36,730 nucleotides of DNA, taken from positions 1 to 36,730 of IMG/VR virus record IMGVR_UViG_3300020186_000004. One strand, given 5' to 3'. This document shows positions 8,351 through 17,415 of the stretch, one piece after another. The translations under genes were made by a program, and so were the position numbers. Source of the DNA: a virus. A model generated the notes under the pieces. That model was not told the DNA's origin and searched no databases. It was given only the letters and a program-made list of their open reading frames with translations. Position 1 is the first letter of the stretch, and every line of letters begins with the position of its first letter.

Positions 8351-8893
8351 ATGCAAGTTGCTGAAGATCCAAATTCAAAAGCGTTAAGAAGCTCCAAGAA
8401 ATGGTTTGGTAAATGCTGGATTTGGCAAGGTTCTTTCTTTCAGAGTGGGTATGGACGTTATTTTTCACACCAAAAAACATATCGTGCTCACCGGGTATCA
8501 TTTTACCTATACAACGGTACATTAACAAACAATTTATTTATTTGCCACAAATGTGATAATCCTGCTTGCGTAAATCCTCAACATCTATTCGAAGGCAGCC
8601 CTCTAGATAATACAAGGGATATGATTAAGAAGAAAAGATTAGTTCCAGAACGTGGTAAATGGAAGAATAAATCTTCACAATACTACGGAGTGACCTATAG
8701 AAAAGACGGTGATATTTGGCGTATAAATTGTATGATCAACTATAAGAAACTACTTAAAGGTAACTTTAACACAGAGTTAGAAGCAGCAGAGGCATATGAC
8801 CAAGGGTTGATAAGGCTCTTTAGCGAAGGCGTTTTAAACTATCAAAAGCCACTTAACTTCCCAGAGAAGAATAAGTATTCTTATAGGCCATAG
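8351..8893 (+). CDS. HNH endonuclease with C-terminal AP2 DNA-binding domain
   Basis: 180 residues. The N-terminal half has the pattern of phage HNH nucleases: W-x-G (22-27), A-H-R (46-48), then C65-H66, C68, C73-x-N75 and H78 with L-x-G-S-x-x-D-N (79-87). Residues 108-165 form an AP2-type domain (Y-Y-G-V-T-Y-R-K-D-G...W-R-I...A-A-E-A-Y-D). This pairing is common in free-standing homing endonucleases. It lies between TerL and portal on the opposite strand to both and shares 13 bases with the TerL 3' end. No strong ribosome site is visible. It is probably a selfish insertion. Confidence 0.8.
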   Translation: MQVAEDPNSKALRSSKKWFGKCWIWQGSFFQSGYGRYFSHQKTYRAHRVSFYLYNGTLTNNLFICHKCDNPACVNPQHLFEGSPLDNTRDMIKKKRLVPERGKWKNKSSQYYGVTYRKDGDIWRINCMINYKKLLKGNFNTELEAAEAYDQGLIRLFSEGVLNYQKPLNFPEKNKYSYRP

Positions 8894-10789: not shown

Positions 10790-11226
10790 TTAGGACAAAC
10801 CTTTTGTTTCTTTTTGGAAGGCTTTTCTTCTTCCTCAGAATCGGGAATGTCGATTTCTAAACTTTCTAAGTCAAAACCCCAATCTAGTAGATTAGGTACG
10901 TCAAATTCGTTTGCAAGGATTTCGTAGTCAAAAGACCCGTGATTCTTATTCAATCGAATATTTAATTCTTCAACGTCGAGATCACTTAATAGCACATCGG
11001 GGACCCAAACTTCAATATATTTTGCTTTATTTTTTTTTAAAATGGAGATTCTTTGATGTCCGCCTATGATGGTCATGTCTAGATTGACGATGGGTTTATC
11101 TATGAGGCCGAACTTGATTAAAGATTTGGTGAGATGATCCCCTTGCTCTCTGGAAAGGGTGCGGGGATTTTTTGGATGAGGCTTAAGATCTTTGACTGCA
11201 ACGGATTTAAGGGACCATTGAAACAT
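10768..11226 (-). CDS. ParB-like nuclease-domain protein with C-terminal zinc knuckle
   Basis: 152 residues. The first 95 residues match the ParB/Srx-like fold: L-K-P-H-P-K-N-P-R near 14-22, L-I-K-F-G-L-I-D-K-P-I-V near 36-47, then the signature G-G-H-Q-R near 55-59 (G-H-x-R phosphate-binding loop). An acidic linker follows, then C-P-K-C-G-E, half of a zinc ribbon. Such proteins commonly sit just upstream of terminase genes. It overlaps terS by up to 22 bases. A role in packaging-site marking or partition is possible; a DNA methylase partner often found beside them is absent. Confidence 0.75.
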   Translation of the reverse strand: MFQWSLKSVAVKDLKPHPKNPRTLSREQGDHLTKSLIKFGLIDKPIVNLDMTIIGGHQRISILKKNKAKYIEVWVPDVLLSDLDVEELNIRLNKNHGSFDYEILANEFDVPNLLDWGFDLESLEIDIPDSEEEEKPSKKKQKVCPKCGEEIS

Positions 11227-11243
11227 CGAAAGGATCCTTTAAT

Positions 11244-11465
11244 TTAGCATTGATGCTCTAGGTCTGCTAAGTCTTCATCACATTCCTCGTCTGAAAACAT
11301 GACGAGGTTGTAAGCGTCGCGCAGGTTGTGCCCGTTTTGGACATATTCTAGCATAAGGTCAGCTTCTTCTGCTGATACGGTGAAGATTTCGGCAACGGCC
11401 TGGATTAGCGTAAGGCGAGTGGTTAAAGAGTCTACTAAGCTTTCGTCTATTTTAATTGATTCCAC
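11244..11465 (-). CDS. Small acidic helical protein, paralogue of the 5612-5812 product
   Basis: 73 residues, acidic, predicted helical. Its core (L-I-Q-A-V-A-E-I-F, then E-A-D-L-M-L-E-Y-V-Q-N-G-H and A-Y-N-L) repeats the pattern of the protein at 5612-5812. It heads the packaging block, 17 bases before the ParB-like gene. Its start lies inside the end of the preceding ORF (19-base overlap). Function unknown. Confidence 0.6.
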   Translation of the reverse strand: MESIKIDESLVDSLTTRLTLIQAVAEIFTVSAEEADLMLEYVQNGHNLRDAYNLVMFSDEECDEDLADLEHQC

Positions 11466-11695
11466 TTCGGCTTTACCTCTTTAAGATTACCTTTTTCATC
11501 GTATATGTCAGTAAGATTCCCTTGCGGGTTATCAAAGTAAAGCATGGGGCCTATTTTGCTATAGCTCCAGCCTTTCGAGAGATATTGATGGATCAAACTG
11601 AATTGATTGCTTGCGGTCGATATCATGGCCGAAAGGATATTGAAGGAGGATAAATTTGTAAAGGAATAAGAAACTCTTTTGCATGATCGTGGCAC
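11447..11695 (-). CDS. Possible first gene of the late block, unknown, start uncertain
   Basis: The open frame gives 82 residues from a GTG at 11695. An internal ATG at 11626 would leave 59. Neither has a clear ribosome site. The last 55 residues look like a real protein (Y-L-S-K-G-W-S-Y-S-K-I-G, then Y-D-E-K-G-N-L-K-E-V). It overlaps the next gene by 19 bases, in keeping with the packing of this operon. It may be partly non-coding at its 5' end. Confidence 0.35.
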   Translation of the reverse strand: MPRSCKRVSYSFTNLSSFNILSAMISTASNQFSLIHQYLSKGWSYSKIGPMLYFDNPQGNLTDIYDEKGNLKEVKPKWNQLK

Positions 11696-11705
11696 TTTCG
11701 TAACA

Positions 11706-11735
11706 TTATTGTGTACATGAATTCTCTCATATGAT
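11706..11735 (+). promoter_or_regulatory. Putative promoter of the 11.8-14.0 kb rightward operon
   Basis: TTATTG (11706-11711), 18 bases and TATGAT (11730-11735) precede the first gene of the rightward cluster by about 40 bases. The following ATATGATGAT gives overlapping -10 choices. The -35 is weak. Confidence 0.3.
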
Positions 11736-11776
11736 ATGATGATACTATCGGTTTAAGAAACAACGTGAGGGATGAA

Positions 11777-12157
11777 ATGTACGCGATTAAAGAATACATG
11801 GAAGGCAAGTTCAACGGAGCTACGTTTATAGATAGCTTAAAAATTGCCAATTGTCTTGGAAATTTGGTAGATGATCCTTTTAAGGCGGATGTTGTGCGGC
11901 TTGAATACTCACCCGATGGTCAACTTATAGAAGTTCACCTAGAATCGTTCCCTAAAAAAGAGGAGGTATGGATGTTTAGTGTTAAAGAATATCGCTACGA
12001 CAGGTTTGTAGGCGCAACTAATTTTGAAGATGCAAAGTCGTCGGTTGAATTTGCAAAGAAGGTGCCGATTTACCCCGGCGCTGTAGTTTATGCGGTTCAG
12101 ATCGACTTCAACAACAACGGAGATCTTTTTGAGAACGTTATTTGGAGGTCAGTATGA
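11777..12157 (+). CDS. Unknown protein, first gene of a rightward operon
   Basis: 126 residues from the ATG at 11777, which has GAGGG upstream. A GTG at 11765 in frame overlaps that site and is unlikely. The sequence is mixed alpha/beta, with Y-S-P-D-G-Q-L-I-E-V-H-L, F-S-V-K-E-Y-R-Y-D-R-F-V-G and Y-P-G-A-V-V-Y-A-V-Q-I-D-F-N-N-N-G. No membrane segment, no known domain. Its stop overlaps the next ATG (ATGA), so the operon is coupled. Confidence 0.6.
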   Translation: MYAIKEYMEGKFNGATFIDSLKIANCLGNLVDDPFKADVVRLEYSPDGQLIEVHLESFPKKEEVWMFSVKEYRYDRFVGATNFEDAKSSVEFAKKVPIYPGAVVYAVQIDFNNNGDLFENVIWRSV

Positions 12158-12345
12158 GCAAGCTCCTCGATGATTACGAGTCAAAGCTTCAGGTTAAACT
12201 CGACGCTGCCATAGCGCAGCTTGAGGAAACCTTGAAGTTAATACAGGAAGAAGATAAGTTCTTTGGCCTTGCTTGGCCAACAGAGGGCCGGCTTTGGAAA
12301 TTGAATAAAACGTGTGAGAGAATTTTATCGGAGTTTAGACCATGA
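12154..12345 (+). CDS. Small coiled-coil protein, unknown
   Basis: 63 residues from the ATG at 12154, which has a strong GGAGG. An upstream in-frame TTG at 12142 lies before that site. It is helical and charged (L-D-A-A-I-A-Q-L-E-E-T-L-K-L-I-Q-E-E-D). It overlaps both neighbours by ATGA junctions. No motif recognised. Confidence 0.6.
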   Translation: MSKLLDDYESKLQVKLDAAIAQLEETLKLIQEEDKFFGLAWPTEGRLWKLNKTCERILSEFRP

Positions 12346-12578
12346 GAAAGCCGCATTGCATTTTTGGATATTCCTCTTTTGAAGCTCCGGCTGATGAAGA
12401 AGGGCAAGAAGACATCTTGCGAGGTCAGATCCAATGGACACTTAGCGAGATGCATAAGATTGAGGATCGCTATAATCATGATGAGCCGGTCTTTGATAAA
12501 GACTATGCTCAATTAAACAGAGATCTACATGAATTTGAAGCGCAACTAGAAAGTCTTATGGATTGTGATGAAGATTAA
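12342..12578 (+). CDS. Small acidic protein, unknown
   Basis: 78 residues. GGAG precedes the ATG, which overlaps the upstream stop. Acidic and mostly helical, ending in M-D-C-D-E-D. The middle (L-R-G-Q-I-Q-W-T-L-S-E-M-H-K-I-E-D-R-Y-N-H-D-E-P-V split over two helices) has no recognised family. Confidence 0.55.
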   Translation: MRKPHCIFGYSSFEAPADEEGQEDILRGQIQWTLSEMHKIEDRYNHDEPVFDKDYAQLNRDLHEFEAQLESLMDCDED

Positions 12579-12665
12579 GATTGGGGCCGTTTGAATATAC
12601 TTGCATTGAAATTAAGTGTAATGTTTGATAAACTCACAGTCTATAAAAGTTTACCGTGGAGGAAT

Positions 12666-12896
12666 ATGAACGCTTTACAATTAGATTTCACAGTGGACAA
12701 GTCTCCTGTTAACCCAGAGGAGGCTTATCTGATGCGCCTTGAGATGAAGAAGACTCAGGAGATGTCGCATAACGTAAGACGCGGAATCTTTGCTAGGCTT
12801 AGCGAACAAGAGAAGCTTGTCTTAAGTTTGCGCGAGGAAATTGAGCAGATGAGAGCGATCATCAATGAGTTTAAGGAGGCGGTATGTCTCAAGTGA
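12666..12896 (+). CDS. Small coiled-coil protein, unknown
   Basis: 76 residues from the ATG at 12666, which is preceded by GGAGG. A longer frame from a TTG at 12591 would include the untranslated leader. The C-terminal two thirds are a heptad-like helix (A-R-L-S-E-Q-E-K-L-V-L-S-L-R-E-E-I-E-Q-M). The 88-base gap before it contains GTTTGATAAACTCACAG and no obvious terminator. Confidence 0.6.
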   Translation: MNALQLDFTVDKSPVNPEEAYLMRLEMKKTQEMSHNVRRGIFARLSEQEKLVLSLREEIEQMRAIINEFKEAVCLK

Positions 12897-13078
12897 TCAC
12901 TAGCCTTTATCCGGGTGTTTGTGTTTTTAAGGCTTATACAGGGGCGCAAGATGCACTCTTGATTAACACAGGGGTTACCCTTCCCCTATCGACTATTTAT
13001 AAGCTATACGAAAAATACGTTAAGGAGAAACATGACTACACCAATAAGACCTCCCTCACCGAGAGCATTGGAGAATAG
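12884..13078 (+). CDS. Small unknown protein
   Basis: 64 residues with a strong AAGGAGG before the ATG, overlapping the upstream gene by 13 bases. The first 45 residues look folded (G-V-C-V-F-K-A-Y-T-G-A-Q-D-A-L-L-I-N-T-G). The tail (H-D-Y-T-N-K-T-S-L-T-E-S) is encoded over the start of the next gene, a 47-base overlap. Confidence 0.5.
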   Translation: MSQVITSLYPGVCVFKAYTGAQDALLINTGVTLPLSTIYKLYEKYVKEKHDYTNKTSLTESIGE

Positions 13079-13319
13079 CGCTGGTATTCATCGCAGTCCA
13101 AGTTTTAGGGTTCCAGTTGCTTTTTCTCCCTTAGATGAAGATTTTTCAGATGCAGCGCTAGATCTTATCATTGAACAAGCTAAAGAAGACTTAGGTACTA
13201 CGCGGAAGTGGACGCTTTATTATGAGGCTATGCGACGTGATGAGTATCTTCAGAGAGTTCGAGAGAAGCAGTTTGGTCATGTATTTAGAAATGAAGTAAG
13301 GATGCCCAAGAAACCATGA
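13032..13319 (+). CDS. Small unknown protein
   Basis: 95 residues with AAGGAG before the ATG. A Pro/Ser-rich N-terminus (about 30 residues) is followed by a helical, charged domain (A-L-D-L-I-I-E-Q-A-K-E-D-L, then Y-Y-E-A-M-R-R-D-E-Y-L-Q-R-V-R). Overlaps the next gene by ATGA. Not recognised. Confidence 0.55.
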   Translation: MTTPIRPPSPRALENSAGIHRSPSFRVPVAFSPLDEDFSDAALDLIIEQAKEDLGTTRKWTLYYEAMRRDEYLQRVREKQFGHVFRNEVRMPKKP

Positions 13320-13531
13320 AAAGAATAGTTGCTAGGATTCCTTTTGAGCAAGATGGATGCGCTTTTACCGATGAAGATCTTAAAGCTTTAATTATCAGAG
13401 GTCACGCGATAGGCTTGCTAGGGATTCCTATTGACAAGATCGCTGTAAAATATGATTCTAAAGAAAATGAGTATGTTGTCAGTTGGTTTGAAAAGTGGCC
13501 AAAATCTTTAAAAGATAAGTTAGGGATATGA
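13316..13531 (+). CDS. Small unknown protein
   Basis: 71 residues, compact alpha/beta: R-I-V-A-R-I-P-F-E, an L-K-A-L-I-I-R-G-H-A-I-G helix, V-K-Y-D-S-K-E-N-E-Y-V-V-S-W. Start by ATGA overlap with the gene before. Its last codons lie in the 18-base tandem duplication that also carries the next gene's start. Confidence 0.6.
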   Translation: MKRIVARIPFEQDGCAFTDEDLKALIIRGHAIGLLGIPIDKIAVKYDSKENEYVVSWFEKWPKSLKDKLGI

Positions 13532-13557
13532 TGATCTTAAGGGATATGATGATCTTA
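13522..13557 (+). repeat. 18-bp tandem duplication carrying a ribosome site and start codons
   Basis: AGGGATATGATGATCTTA occurs twice with no gap (13522-13539, 13540-13557). Each copy holds AGGG and the tandem ATGATG. The duplication adds six codons, so the frame is kept and the downstream gene begins MMILRDMMILL. Confidence 0.9.
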
Positions 13558-14013
13558 TTGCAACACAAGCCTCTTTGGTTTATGGGGCTTTGTGCGCTTT
13601 CAGTAGCTGAGAGCTATGCCTTCCATCTGAAACCAAGATCTTTAATCTATATGACTCCATCGCAGCTTACCGGGAAAGAGACAACGCTTCCCTTAAGAAC
13701 AAAGCTTTGGGTAAATCTTCCGATTGCCCTTTCTTTAGCCCCTATTGCTTATTGTTTGTTTACCACGATTCCTAAGTACACGCTTCTTGAGAAGATTGCT
13801 ATGACCGTTTTCATCGTAGCGCTTCGGACAATGGTTAGTGGTTCCATCAAGATTCCTTTCACCAATCGTACAATTGAGTTCGTTAACCCTTATGATCCGG
13901 GTCCTTTTAAAGCTAAGTCATGGGCTCCTGCTAAAACCCCGCCGCTTCCTATATCGCAGATAGCCTTAAGCTTAAATCGCCATGGTATCCAAAGTCCGGA
14001 TCAAGCGTCTTAG
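13528..14013 (+). CDS. Two-segment membrane protein, unknown
   Basis: 161 residues from the first ATG (13528). ATGs at 13531, 13546 and 13549 are equally usable because of the 18-bp duplication. Hydrophobic segments lie at about 62-82 (N-L-P-I-A-L-S-L-A-P-I-A-Y-C-L-F) and 87-105 (K-I-A-M-T-V-F-I-V-A-L), with a possible shorter one at 14-27. The C-terminal 55 residues are polar and Pro-rich, with F-V-N-P-Y-D-P-G-P-F. Holin function is possible but not shown. Last gene of the rightward cluster before the promoter at 14020. Confidence 0.6.
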   Translation: MMILRDMMILLQHKPLWFMGLCALSVAESYAFHLKPRSLIYMTPSQLTGKETTLPLRTKLWVNLPIALSLAPIAYCLFTTIPKYTLLEKIAMTVFIVALRTMVSGSIKIPFTNRTIEFVNPYDPGPFKAKSWAPAKTPPLPISQIALSLNRHGIQSPDQAS

Positions 14014-14738: not shown

Positions 14739-14972
14739 TTAGTAGGGTAATGGTAAAACTTGTAAAGCGGGTTTGGGGGTGTTGTTTTTGGGCAGCGCAA
14801 AAATAATGTCGCTGATCTTTTCAAACTCGAAGTTGCAGATATCTTCATTTTCGTAGTGCAAAGAAAAAACTTCCTTTGTAGATAGGGTAAATGTTACAGA
14901 GTCTCCACACTTACAAATTCTTAGGCATTTTTCCAGATTGATTATTAGATCGTTGTAAGCATACCACTTCAT
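14739..14972 (-). CDS. Small unknown protein between rusA and the spanins
   Basis: 77 residues. Beta-rich middle (D-S-V-T-F-T-L-S-T-K-E-V-F-S-L-H-Y), C-x-C near residue 20, no signal or membrane segment. Its ATG overlaps the RusA stop (ATGA). Not recognised. Confidence 0.6.
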   Translation of the reverse strand: MKWYAYNDLIINLEKCLRICKCGDSVTFTLSTKEVFSLHYENEDICNFEFEKISDIIFALPKNNTPKPALQVLPLPY

Positions 14973-15406
14973 TTTGCCTCTCTTGTCATTTCTTCAATAA
15001 AAGCCTGGTTCTCAAGAATTGCTTTTCTGGCCTGTTCGATCAGATATTGCTTAGAGAGGTGAATAAATTCAAGCTCTATCCCATACTCACGCACACCGCC
15101 TTTTCTTTGACAGTATTCCCAAGAGATTCGGGGGTCTCCATCAGCCCTTCCTGGTGCTAGGCCTGGAATCAACCAATCTGCGACCCCATCAATGATTTCT
15201 TTCATAGAGGCCACTAGATTATCGAAATCAGCCATTGTGGGAGCAACCCTTGTCATAACCACTTTCGTGGGCAATTCGGGCCTTTCCTGTTTGTTTAAAT
15301 GGCATTTGATGATCCAGATCTTCTTTTTGTTTTGGGTATAGCTCTTAGTCCAATGTTTTTTGATGTTAGGTGATTCAAGTTCAATGTGAGGAATGAATAT
15401 TTTCAT
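14969..15406 (-). CDS. rusA: RusA-like Holliday junction resolvase
   Basis: 145 residues. The central part has the RusA pattern: D-F-D-N-L-V-A-S-M-K-E-I-I-D-G (about 76-90) and, in the usual third acidic position, G-R-A-D-G-D-P-R-I-S-W (about 100-111). The N-terminus has the P-S/N-x-K-K-x-W-T-K-S-Y type lead of this family. It would cut four-way junctions left by replication and recombination before packaging. The start codon overlaps the initiator stop (TAATG). Confidence 0.8.
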   Translation of the reverse strand: MKIFIPHIELESPNIKKHWTKSYTQNKKKIWIIKCHLNKQERPELPTKVVMTRVAPTMADFDNLVASMKEIIDGVADWLIPGLAPGRADGDPRISWEYCQRKGGVREYGIELEFIHLSKQYLIEQARKAILENQAFIEEMTREAK

Positions 15407-16419
15407 TAAAAGTTAGCGTAGTCCATTTCGGGTTCTGGTTGAGTAGTTTCCATCTCTTCTGATGGTAGTAAATTTCTATGTCTAATAAGAAATTTGACAA
15501 TATATGGGGGAATTTTTCCGAGATATTTTTCAAGAGACATTTTTAGTAAGTCTTTAAAACTTGGATTGTCGTATTGCACGAAAGTTGGAATTGTATGACC
15601 CGTACTATGTCGTATTTCGATACCTTTATTCAATATATCATAAACAACGGTTGTGGGGAATTTCAATTGATGCTCTATTTGTTTAGCTGTATGAATATGA
15701 TCGTCAATCATTTCATCAATGCTATATGGTAACTCAACTTTATCTCTACACACCCATTTCAAAATCGCTATTAATGGTTTATCTTTGTAAGGACCTTTTT
15801 TTCTACGATGATATTCAACTGCATGTTGGACCGTTGCTTCATCGTACTTCTCAGTTAGCCAGATCGCATCTTTTTCAGTAATACCGTTACCTGCGATGTC
15901 TTGTATTCCTAAAAGGCAAGGGTAAAAAAAATTATTAATAGGTTCTGTATTATTAATGGGTTCTTCTTCAAAGGGTTCTTCTTTGGCTACCGTTTTTGGT
16001 AGTACCCCCCTACCGTTTTTGGTAGTACCCCCCCTACCGTTTTTGGTAGTACCCCCTACCGTTTTTGGTAGTACCCCCAGGAAAAATTTTAAATTAAAAT
16101 CCCAAAGATCAACGCATGTGATAACATCAGCCTCTTGATCCCCCTCTTCCGAAAATTTTTCACTTATTCTTATTAATGGCATGCCAATTACAGGCTGGGG
16201 CATGGCTAACAATCTTTTAACTCGTCGGCAAGTCTTAACGTCCACCCCGGCCGCTTCGGCAAGGTTCTTCATGCTTTTAAAGCACTTGCTTTTATCGCCG
16301 GCAATTCTTCGGATAGCCATAAAGACAGCCAGTTCGACAGGTTTAAGCCCAATATCAAAAACAATATTAGGAACCATTGTAAAGTATTTTGCTAATGATG
16401 ATTCTTCTTCGATGCGCAT
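15406..16419 (-). CDS. Replication initiator, lambda O-like, containing the putative origin
   Basis: 337 residues, AAGGAG before the ATG. Residues 1-110 form a winged-helix-type domain with a helix-turn-helix around 53-71 (L-A-E-A-A-G-V-D-V-K-T-C-R-R-V), like the N-terminal domain of phage O-type initiators. Residues 115-145 are encoded by four DNA iterons. An acidic linker with E-E-P-F-E-E-E-P-I-N-N repeats follows. Residues 165-235 and 255-337 look helical and may contact host helicase proteins. No ATPase motif is present, so it is not a helicase loader. RusA follows directly. Function is inferred from the domain, gene order and internal iterons. Confidence 0.65.
   Translation of the reverse strand: MRIEEESSLAKYFTMVPNIVFDIGLKPVELAVFMAIRRIAGDKSKCFKSMKNLAEAAGVDVKTCRRVKRLLAMPQPVIGMPLIRISEKFSEEGDQEADVITCVDLWDFNLKFFLGVLPKTVGGTTKNGRGGTTKNGRGVLPKTVAKEEPFEEEPINNTEPINNFFYPCLLGIQDIAGNGITEKDAIWLTEKYDEATVQHAVEYHRRKKGPYKDKPLIAILKWVCRDKVELPYSIDEMIDDHIHTAKQIEHQLKFPTTVVYDILNKGIEIRHSTGHTIPTFVQYDNPSFKDLLKMSLEKYLGKIPPYIVKFLIRHRNLLPSEEMETTQPEPEMDYANF
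15987..16078. repeat. Four iterons, putative replication origin
   Basis: Four tandem copies of CTACC-GTTTTT-GGTAG-TACCCCC begin at 15987, 16010, 16034 and 16056 (spacings 23, 24 and 22; mean 23). Each is an inverted repeat with 5-bp arms. Copies differ only in C-tract length. AT-rich DNA flanks both sides (16081-16100 is nearly all A/T; 15925-15960 is A/T-rich). Four palindromic iterons beside AT-rich DNA inside the initiator gene is the layout of the lambda origin. Function is inferred. Confidence 0.65.
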
Positions 16420-16453
16420 CTTAAAATTCTCCTTGGTAACAAAAGTTTATTTT

Positions 16454-16478
16454 GTTCAAGAATTCTAAGAAAACCGCT
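16454..16478 (+). repeat. 25-bp motif, forward copy
   Basis: GTTCAAGAATTCTAAGAAAA followed by CCGCT. It matches the reverse complement of the motif at 16589-16613 in 22 of 25 bases. Its core AGAATTCT is palindromic. It lies 35 bases before the initiator ATG, where a bound protein could control the gene. Confidence 0.7.
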
Positions 16479-16495
16479 TGCGACTAAACTAGTAA

Positions 16496-16535
16496 ATGAG
16501 CTAACATGTTGGAGAATGTGATGTTGTTAGCTCAT
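16496..16535. promoter_or_regulatory. 11-bp inverted repeat, hairpin or operator
   Basis: ATGAGCTAACA (16496-16506) and TGTTAGCTCAT (16525-16535) are perfect inverted repeats around an 18-base loop. It has no T-run, so it is not a terminator. It could be a bivalent operator or an RNA hairpin in the initiator leader. Confidence 0.55.
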
Positions 16536-16552
16536 CTAAGAAGTTCATTGGT

Positions 16553-16624
16553 AGTGGTTTTCTTAGGATTTTTGAACAGTCTGTTTTTAGTGATTTTCTT
16601 AGGATTCTTGAACAGTCTGTTTTT
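16553..16624 (-). repeat. Two 36-bp tandem repeats containing the 25-bp motif in reverse
   Basis: Units 16553-16588 and 16589-16624 differ at two positions. Each begins with the reverse complement of the 25-bp motif at 16454 and ends with AGTCTGTTTTT. Together with the forward copy they make a head-to-head set, as expected for operators or looping sites. Confidence 0.8.
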
Positions 16625-17187: not shown

Positions 17188-17415
17188 TTATTTATAAAAA
17201 ACGGATTTGTAGGAAGGACTCTTCTTATCTATCTGAAGAATATCATTTGCCGATACAATATGGCCGGTGTATTCAACGATAGCAGCTAAGTATTTGCCAC
17301 GAACATCGCAGGGATTATCCATAATCTTAAGAACAGTTCTTCTGTCAATACCTAGCCTCTGAGCTAAGTCTGAGGGCGATATTCCTCGTTTATCTAAATA
17401 ATCTCTTAGCTTCAT
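17188..17415 (-). CDS. HTH (Cro/CI-family) regulator
   Basis: 75 residues, AGGAGAAAAATT before the ATG. Residues 1-40 show a classic Xre-type helix-turn-helix: L-R-D-Y-L-D-K-R-G-I-S-P-S-D-L-A-Q-R-L-G, then I-D-R-R-T-V-L-K-I-M. The rest (Y-L-A-A-I-V-E-Y-T-G) completes a small five-helix fold. No protease or dimer domain is present, so it is Cro-sized. It faces the rightward recombination operon across a shared promoter region and is the likeliest immediate repressor of it. Confidence 0.75.
   Translation of the reverse strand: MKLRDYLDKRGISPSDLAQRLGIDRRTVLKIMDNPCDVRGKYLAAIVEYTGHIVSANDILQIDKKSPSYKSVFYK

Follow-up and report, generated by a model that had tools for sequence, protein, structure and literature searches.

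The genome of an uncultivated phage, represented by a whole IMG/VR virus record of 36,730 bases (hereafter the window), contains four exact 16-bp interrupted palindromes, CTACC-GTTTTT-GGTAG, inside the gene of an initiator-like protein. Sequence comparison makes it highly probable that the phage has a theta-type replication origin lying within the gene of its own initiator, and that the array is where the initiator binds. A probable origin has in this way been obtained for such a phage from sequence alone.

Gene neighbourhood

The window encodes the phage head proteins (major head protein, portal and terminase), a RecE-like exonuclease, a RecT-like annealing protein and an integrase. An HNH endonuclease gene on the opposite strand (8351-8893, plus strand), possibly a homing element, separates the portal gene from the terminase gene. 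Rfam and tRNA searches found nothing. The initiator-like gene and the sites upstream of it are positioned as follows.

15406-16419, minus strand: initiator-like gene, an ORF of 337 amino acids with the array inside
16453-16473, minus strand: 21-bp operator-like site, TTTTCTTAGGATTCTTGAACA
16558-16578, plus strand: 21-bp operator-like site, TTTTCTTAGGATTCTTGAACA
16594-16614, plus strand: 21-bp operator-like site, TTTTCTTAGGATTCTTGAACA

The three 21-bp sites are near-identical, are found in both orientations 5' of the initiator gene and resemble repressor operators; a gene for a Cro/C1-type regulator is present at 17188-17415. The gene following the initiator (14969-15406) corresponds in position and in sequence to RusA-like ORFs in related phages, and neither Pfam nor PHROG gave a helicase or loader match for it. 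In the neighbourhood of the initiator gene the scan, which covered a subset of the window ORFs, revealed no helicase and no loader.

The repeat array and its reading frames

The four palindromic units, to which no strand is assigned, are listed with their start in the gene, their frame and the peptide they encode.

15987-16002: palindromic unit, gene nt 418, frame 0, read LPKTVA
16010-16025: palindromic unit, gene nt 395, frame 1, read TTKNGR
16034-16049: palindromic unit, gene nt 371, frame 1, read TTKNGR
16056-16071: palindromic unit, gene nt 349, frame 0, read LPKTVG

On the coding (minus) strand the unit takes the form CTACC-AAAAAC-GGTAG. A sequence-only reading of this DNA had reported four copies of one inverted repeat at spacings of 23, 24 and 22 bp, and both points are confirmed: the copies are all exact over the 16-bp core unit, each has CTACC and GGTAG arms around a 6-bp core, and the start-to-start distances by window position are those given. 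When up to three mismatches were allowed, the window held five matches to the unit, the four exact ones being the array, and none of 100 dinucleotide shuffles reached five. A search with the exact 16-mer returned single matches apart from the viral contig L076.

The same reading had stated that the units are translated into two different peptides and that the G tracts vary from five to seven. In gene order the units indeed read LPKTVG, TTKNGR, TTKNGR and LPKTVA, in frames 0, 1, 1 and 0, and the coding-strand G tracts of the array measure 5, 5, 7 and 6. The array can be read in two of the three frames only, because the third frame of the unit contains a TAG (CGG-TAG).

The initiator-like protein

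Pfam HTH_36 (PF13730) matches residues 24-71 (E 4.6e-5) with 23.6 bits, just short of the curated cut-off of 25; matches to PHROG replication initiation families in this N-terminal part are weak. The AlphaFold model, for which the window protein and 15 homologous N-termini served as input, predicts a winged helix with helices at residues 27-40, 50-57 and 61-72 and strands at 83-89 and 95-102; pLDDT by block is mostly 80-96 across residues 21-90. The array sits directly after this predicted domain, and the residues it encodes (116-160) form a low-confidence stretch of the model, a linker predicted to be disordered. A helical part of moderate confidence occupies residues 165-223.

16114-16368, minus strand: winged helix coding region, residues about 18-102, from the AlphaFold model and the profile match
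15481-15927, minus strand: C-terminal helical part, residues about 165-313, modelled with moderate to low confidence

Fold matches are weak; many are to MarR-type regulators, others to the DnaD N-terminus and to RepA_N initiators and, among viral models, to replisome organizers and an O-like protein. Searching the sequences of solved structures gave chance matches only. Two family assignments were considered and rejected. The window protein has no match to TIGR01610 (phage_O_Nterm), a model which the lambda, P22 and phi80 proteins match strongly, and it is not placed in the lambda O family. Membership of RepA_N was discarded for lack of a sequence match: the domain PF06970 gave no Pfam hit in the window protein, and the fold similarity is weak (E about 0.1).

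A/T-rich DNA, RNA structure and G tracts

15896-15980, no strand assigned: A/T-rich stretch adjoining the array, candidate unwinding element by stability

The presence of A/T-rich DNA beside the array, noted earlier, is borne out: in stability the 60 bp from 15896 rank within the lowest 0.85% of the record. Inside the A/T-rich stretch a 16-bp sequence is directly repeated, imperfectly, at 15931 and 15949. GC skew has no clear turning point at the array.

The array could alternatively be mainly an operator, by which the winged helix throttles its own expression or the copy number, with the origin elsewhere. Winged-helix proteins often regulate their own genes and the sites lie inside the gene, but the position after the winged helix and the adjoining A/T-rich DNA match known in-gene origins, and separate operator-like repeats are available upstream of the gene (16453-16614). 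We consider such a main role unlikely.

Another possibility is that the array functions as RNA or through slippage, message hairpins or slips in the G tracts setting the amount or the length of the protein. Three of the units coincide in part with terminator-like matches on the plus strand, and the gain or loss of one base in any of the G tracts would cut the protein short at 120-150 residues, inside or just past the array. The folding of the array as RNA is, however, no better than that of shuffles (z -0.89), and the G tracts are short and identical in two assemblies, so that this explanation appears extremely improbable. The proposal of the sequence-only reading that slippage in the G tracts switches the protein off found no support, the tracts being the same in the other assembly and runs of 5-7 G being short. 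A related idea is that the array, in addition to its role in the origin, is a truncation switch: a one-base slip in a G tract would lead to the TAG in the third frame and leave the DNA-binding domain alone, as a dominant-negative inhibitor of replication. On this idea, to which we give very little credence, the truncated protein would sit on the units, and the origin itself would be the source of its inhibitor.

Close relatives and phages related by terminase

The only close relative of the window initiator is found in the viral contigs L076 and L001, which are of the same species; a search of genome contigs with the initiator protein gave no close relatives. Apart from a single deletion towards the 3' end of the initiator gene, the DNA of L076/L001 is more than 99% identical to the window, and its array and G tracts are the same. 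Near position 1306 these contigs lack about 35 bases corresponding to window 15462-15493, in the 3' end of the gene, and the frame of the last residues of the initiator is altered.

Since they share both species and array with the window, L076/L001 cannot separate conservation of DNA from recent duplication. The four copies might then be a recent tandem duplication of no function as DNA, after which selection to keep the gene open restored the frame. The identity of all four copies is in keeping with this, as is the fact that the sole close relative has the same array and that no moderately diverged relative shares the unit. Placement, arms and spacing nevertheless recur in distant homologues with other cores, where DNA is kept across frames (see below), and the same plan is found in lambda, which makes a functionless duplication very unlikely.

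Two further phages, L152 and L153, are related to the window phage by their terminase, portal and RusA-like genes. No relative of the window initiator was detectable in these terminase-related phages, and comparison of the array is therefore impossible there. L152 carries a different winged-helix protein in the place of the initiator, followed by a gene resembling an ATPase loader; the terminase relatives carry another replication module. In L153 four collinear pieces spread over 11103-13882 together make up the homologue of the window's major head protein; several hundred bases lie between one piece and the next, an arrangement such as introns or inteins would produce, and there was no Rfam match for the split gene.

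Homologues in plasmids and other viruses

Viral contigs were searched with only the arms of the palindrome specified, the 6-bp core being left free. This led to L169/L170 (the same as L235/L236 of a later search), which carry a winged-helix gene with units CTACC-AAATCA-GGTAG, and their N-terminus led in turn to plasmid genes of Nostoc, Gloeocapsa, Gloeocapsopsis and Deinococcus. When a profile of the N-terminus of this plasmid family was run against all window ORFs, the initiator gene was the only one above the inclusion threshold (E 4.6e-9), and hhalign gave a probability of 95% for the window winged helix against the family. The family of plasmid and viral initiator-like loci comprises L174-L184, L189-L214, L224 and L233-L237; a wider homologue search returned 46 genome and 8 viral loci with a narrower alignment, two of its matches being spurious and 23 residues long (L231 and L232).

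Most full-length homologues have repeats right after the winged helix, at a spacing of about 24 bp and often in two frames; arrays are missing from the short winged-helix relatives that lack a long C-terminus. The family thus shares with the window a homologous winged helix, an array after it, the spacing of about 24 bp, units in two frames and, in several members, arms of the CTACC..GGTAG kind. It differs in the core of its units, which is AAATCA or AAATCT and not AAAAAC, and in that several of its genes precede dnaB (annotated as the next gene in L174-L177 and L182), which does not directly follow the window gene. A second short repeat, of the AAGGTANTCCC type, occurs after the array in most plasmid homologues and is absent from the window; it is carried by L174-L177, L198, L204, L212, L214 and L235, the copies often 14-15 bp apart.

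A limited search of the literature found no origin described for these cyanobacterial and Deinococcus plasmids. The common plan makes their origins directly testable, and this family-wide pattern is a more useful result than the single phage array.

DNA is kept across frames, the peptide is not

Out-of-frame copies occur in 13 of the 19 non-redundant genes having array repeats. Among repeat pairs 38 of 80 are out of frame in the arrays, against 2 of 19 downstream in the same genes; the Fisher p of 0.004 is a guide only, because pairs within one gene are not independent. The 57 out-of-frame pairs of units in a 16-gene panel that took in lambda and phi80 have a mean DNA identity of 86% and a mean peptide identity of 6%. 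The unit consensus sequences for this count were picked by eye from the printed arrays and matches were taken within four mismatches, so that the 86% partly reflects this choice. In some genes all strong units stand in a single frame (L212 and, by the panel count, phi80).

The earlier claim that DNA is kept while the peptide is not is thus upheld in the distant homologues. In the comparison of related phages, which had been proposed as a check, the close relative, being of the same species, was uninformative, and the distant homologues keep the DNA and vary the peptide. As a general test, repeats which keep their DNA across frames inside an initiator gene would mark an in-gene origin.

A search for pairs of GGTACTACC found mostly unrelated coding repeats, and also O-like phage genes with multi-frame arrays. 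Four such genes (L074, L056, L118 and L040; phrog_678, shown for L118) have 6 to 11 units of the CCCCC-AAAAATT-GGGGG type in two or three frames, the number of copies varying between contigs with the gene staying open.

Proposed mode of action

If the array is the origin, the winged helix (residues about 18-102) would bind the four CTACC-N6-GGTAG palindromes, whose spacing of about two helical turns may allow the complexes to stack and to strain the adjacent A/T-rich DNA open. This DNA would melt from 15896 and the helicase would then enter, brought in by the C-terminal helical part of the initiator or by a host loader. The peptide encoded by the array may serve as a flexible linker only, which would leave the units free to stand in any open frame.

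Comparison with known in-gene origins

The identification of the array as origin and iterons in the sequence-only reading is supported by its place after the winged helix, by the arrays of the homologues and by the iterons of lambda O. Origins inside a gene, the kind that the array fits, have precedents in phage lambda and in some plasmids. In the plasmid pSK41, the N-terminus of Rep binds four boxes in the central part of rep, and the part of the protein encoded by the boxes is a dispensable linker (PMC5703833). The layout of pSK41 Rep, a RepA_N protein, is that of the window gene: N-terminal DNA-binding domain, four central boxes, linker and C-terminal domain. Similarity of the window gene to RepA_N is limited to weak fold matches, with no sequence match and a C-terminal part not recognisably related. 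The N-terminus of the chimeric, pSK41-related Rep of pPR9 belongs to pfam13730 and is similar to a phage protein (PMC5703833); this is the same Pfam family as the HTH_36 match below cut-off in the window gene.

A 2020 study (PMC7466680) locates lambdoid origins centrally in gene O, the iterons adjoining A/T-rich DNA, and shows that the O protein binds each iteron. We compared the window gene with lambda O, phi80 gene 15 and P22 gene 18. In both lambda O and the window gene, four interrupted palindromes follow the part of the initiator gene that encodes the DNA-binding domain, stand in more than one frame, have an A-rich core (A4-5) between inverted arms and are flanked by A/T-rich DNA on the same side. 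The arms themselves differ (CTACC/GGTAG in the window, TCCC/GGGA in the lambda type), as does the next gene, which is RusA-like in the window and not a P-type loader or a DnaB-type helicase. The four annotated lambda iterons start at gene nt 349, 369, 393 and 416, nearly coinciding with the window units at 349, 371, 395 and 418; they stand in frames 0, 2, 2 and 1 and read IPQNEG, SPKTRD, SLKLGD and YPSKQGD. The lambda unit, having no stop, is used in three frames and the window unit in two. The textbook case itself therefore has iterons in more than one frame, although our literature searches found no paper stating that the lambda iterons are so placed.
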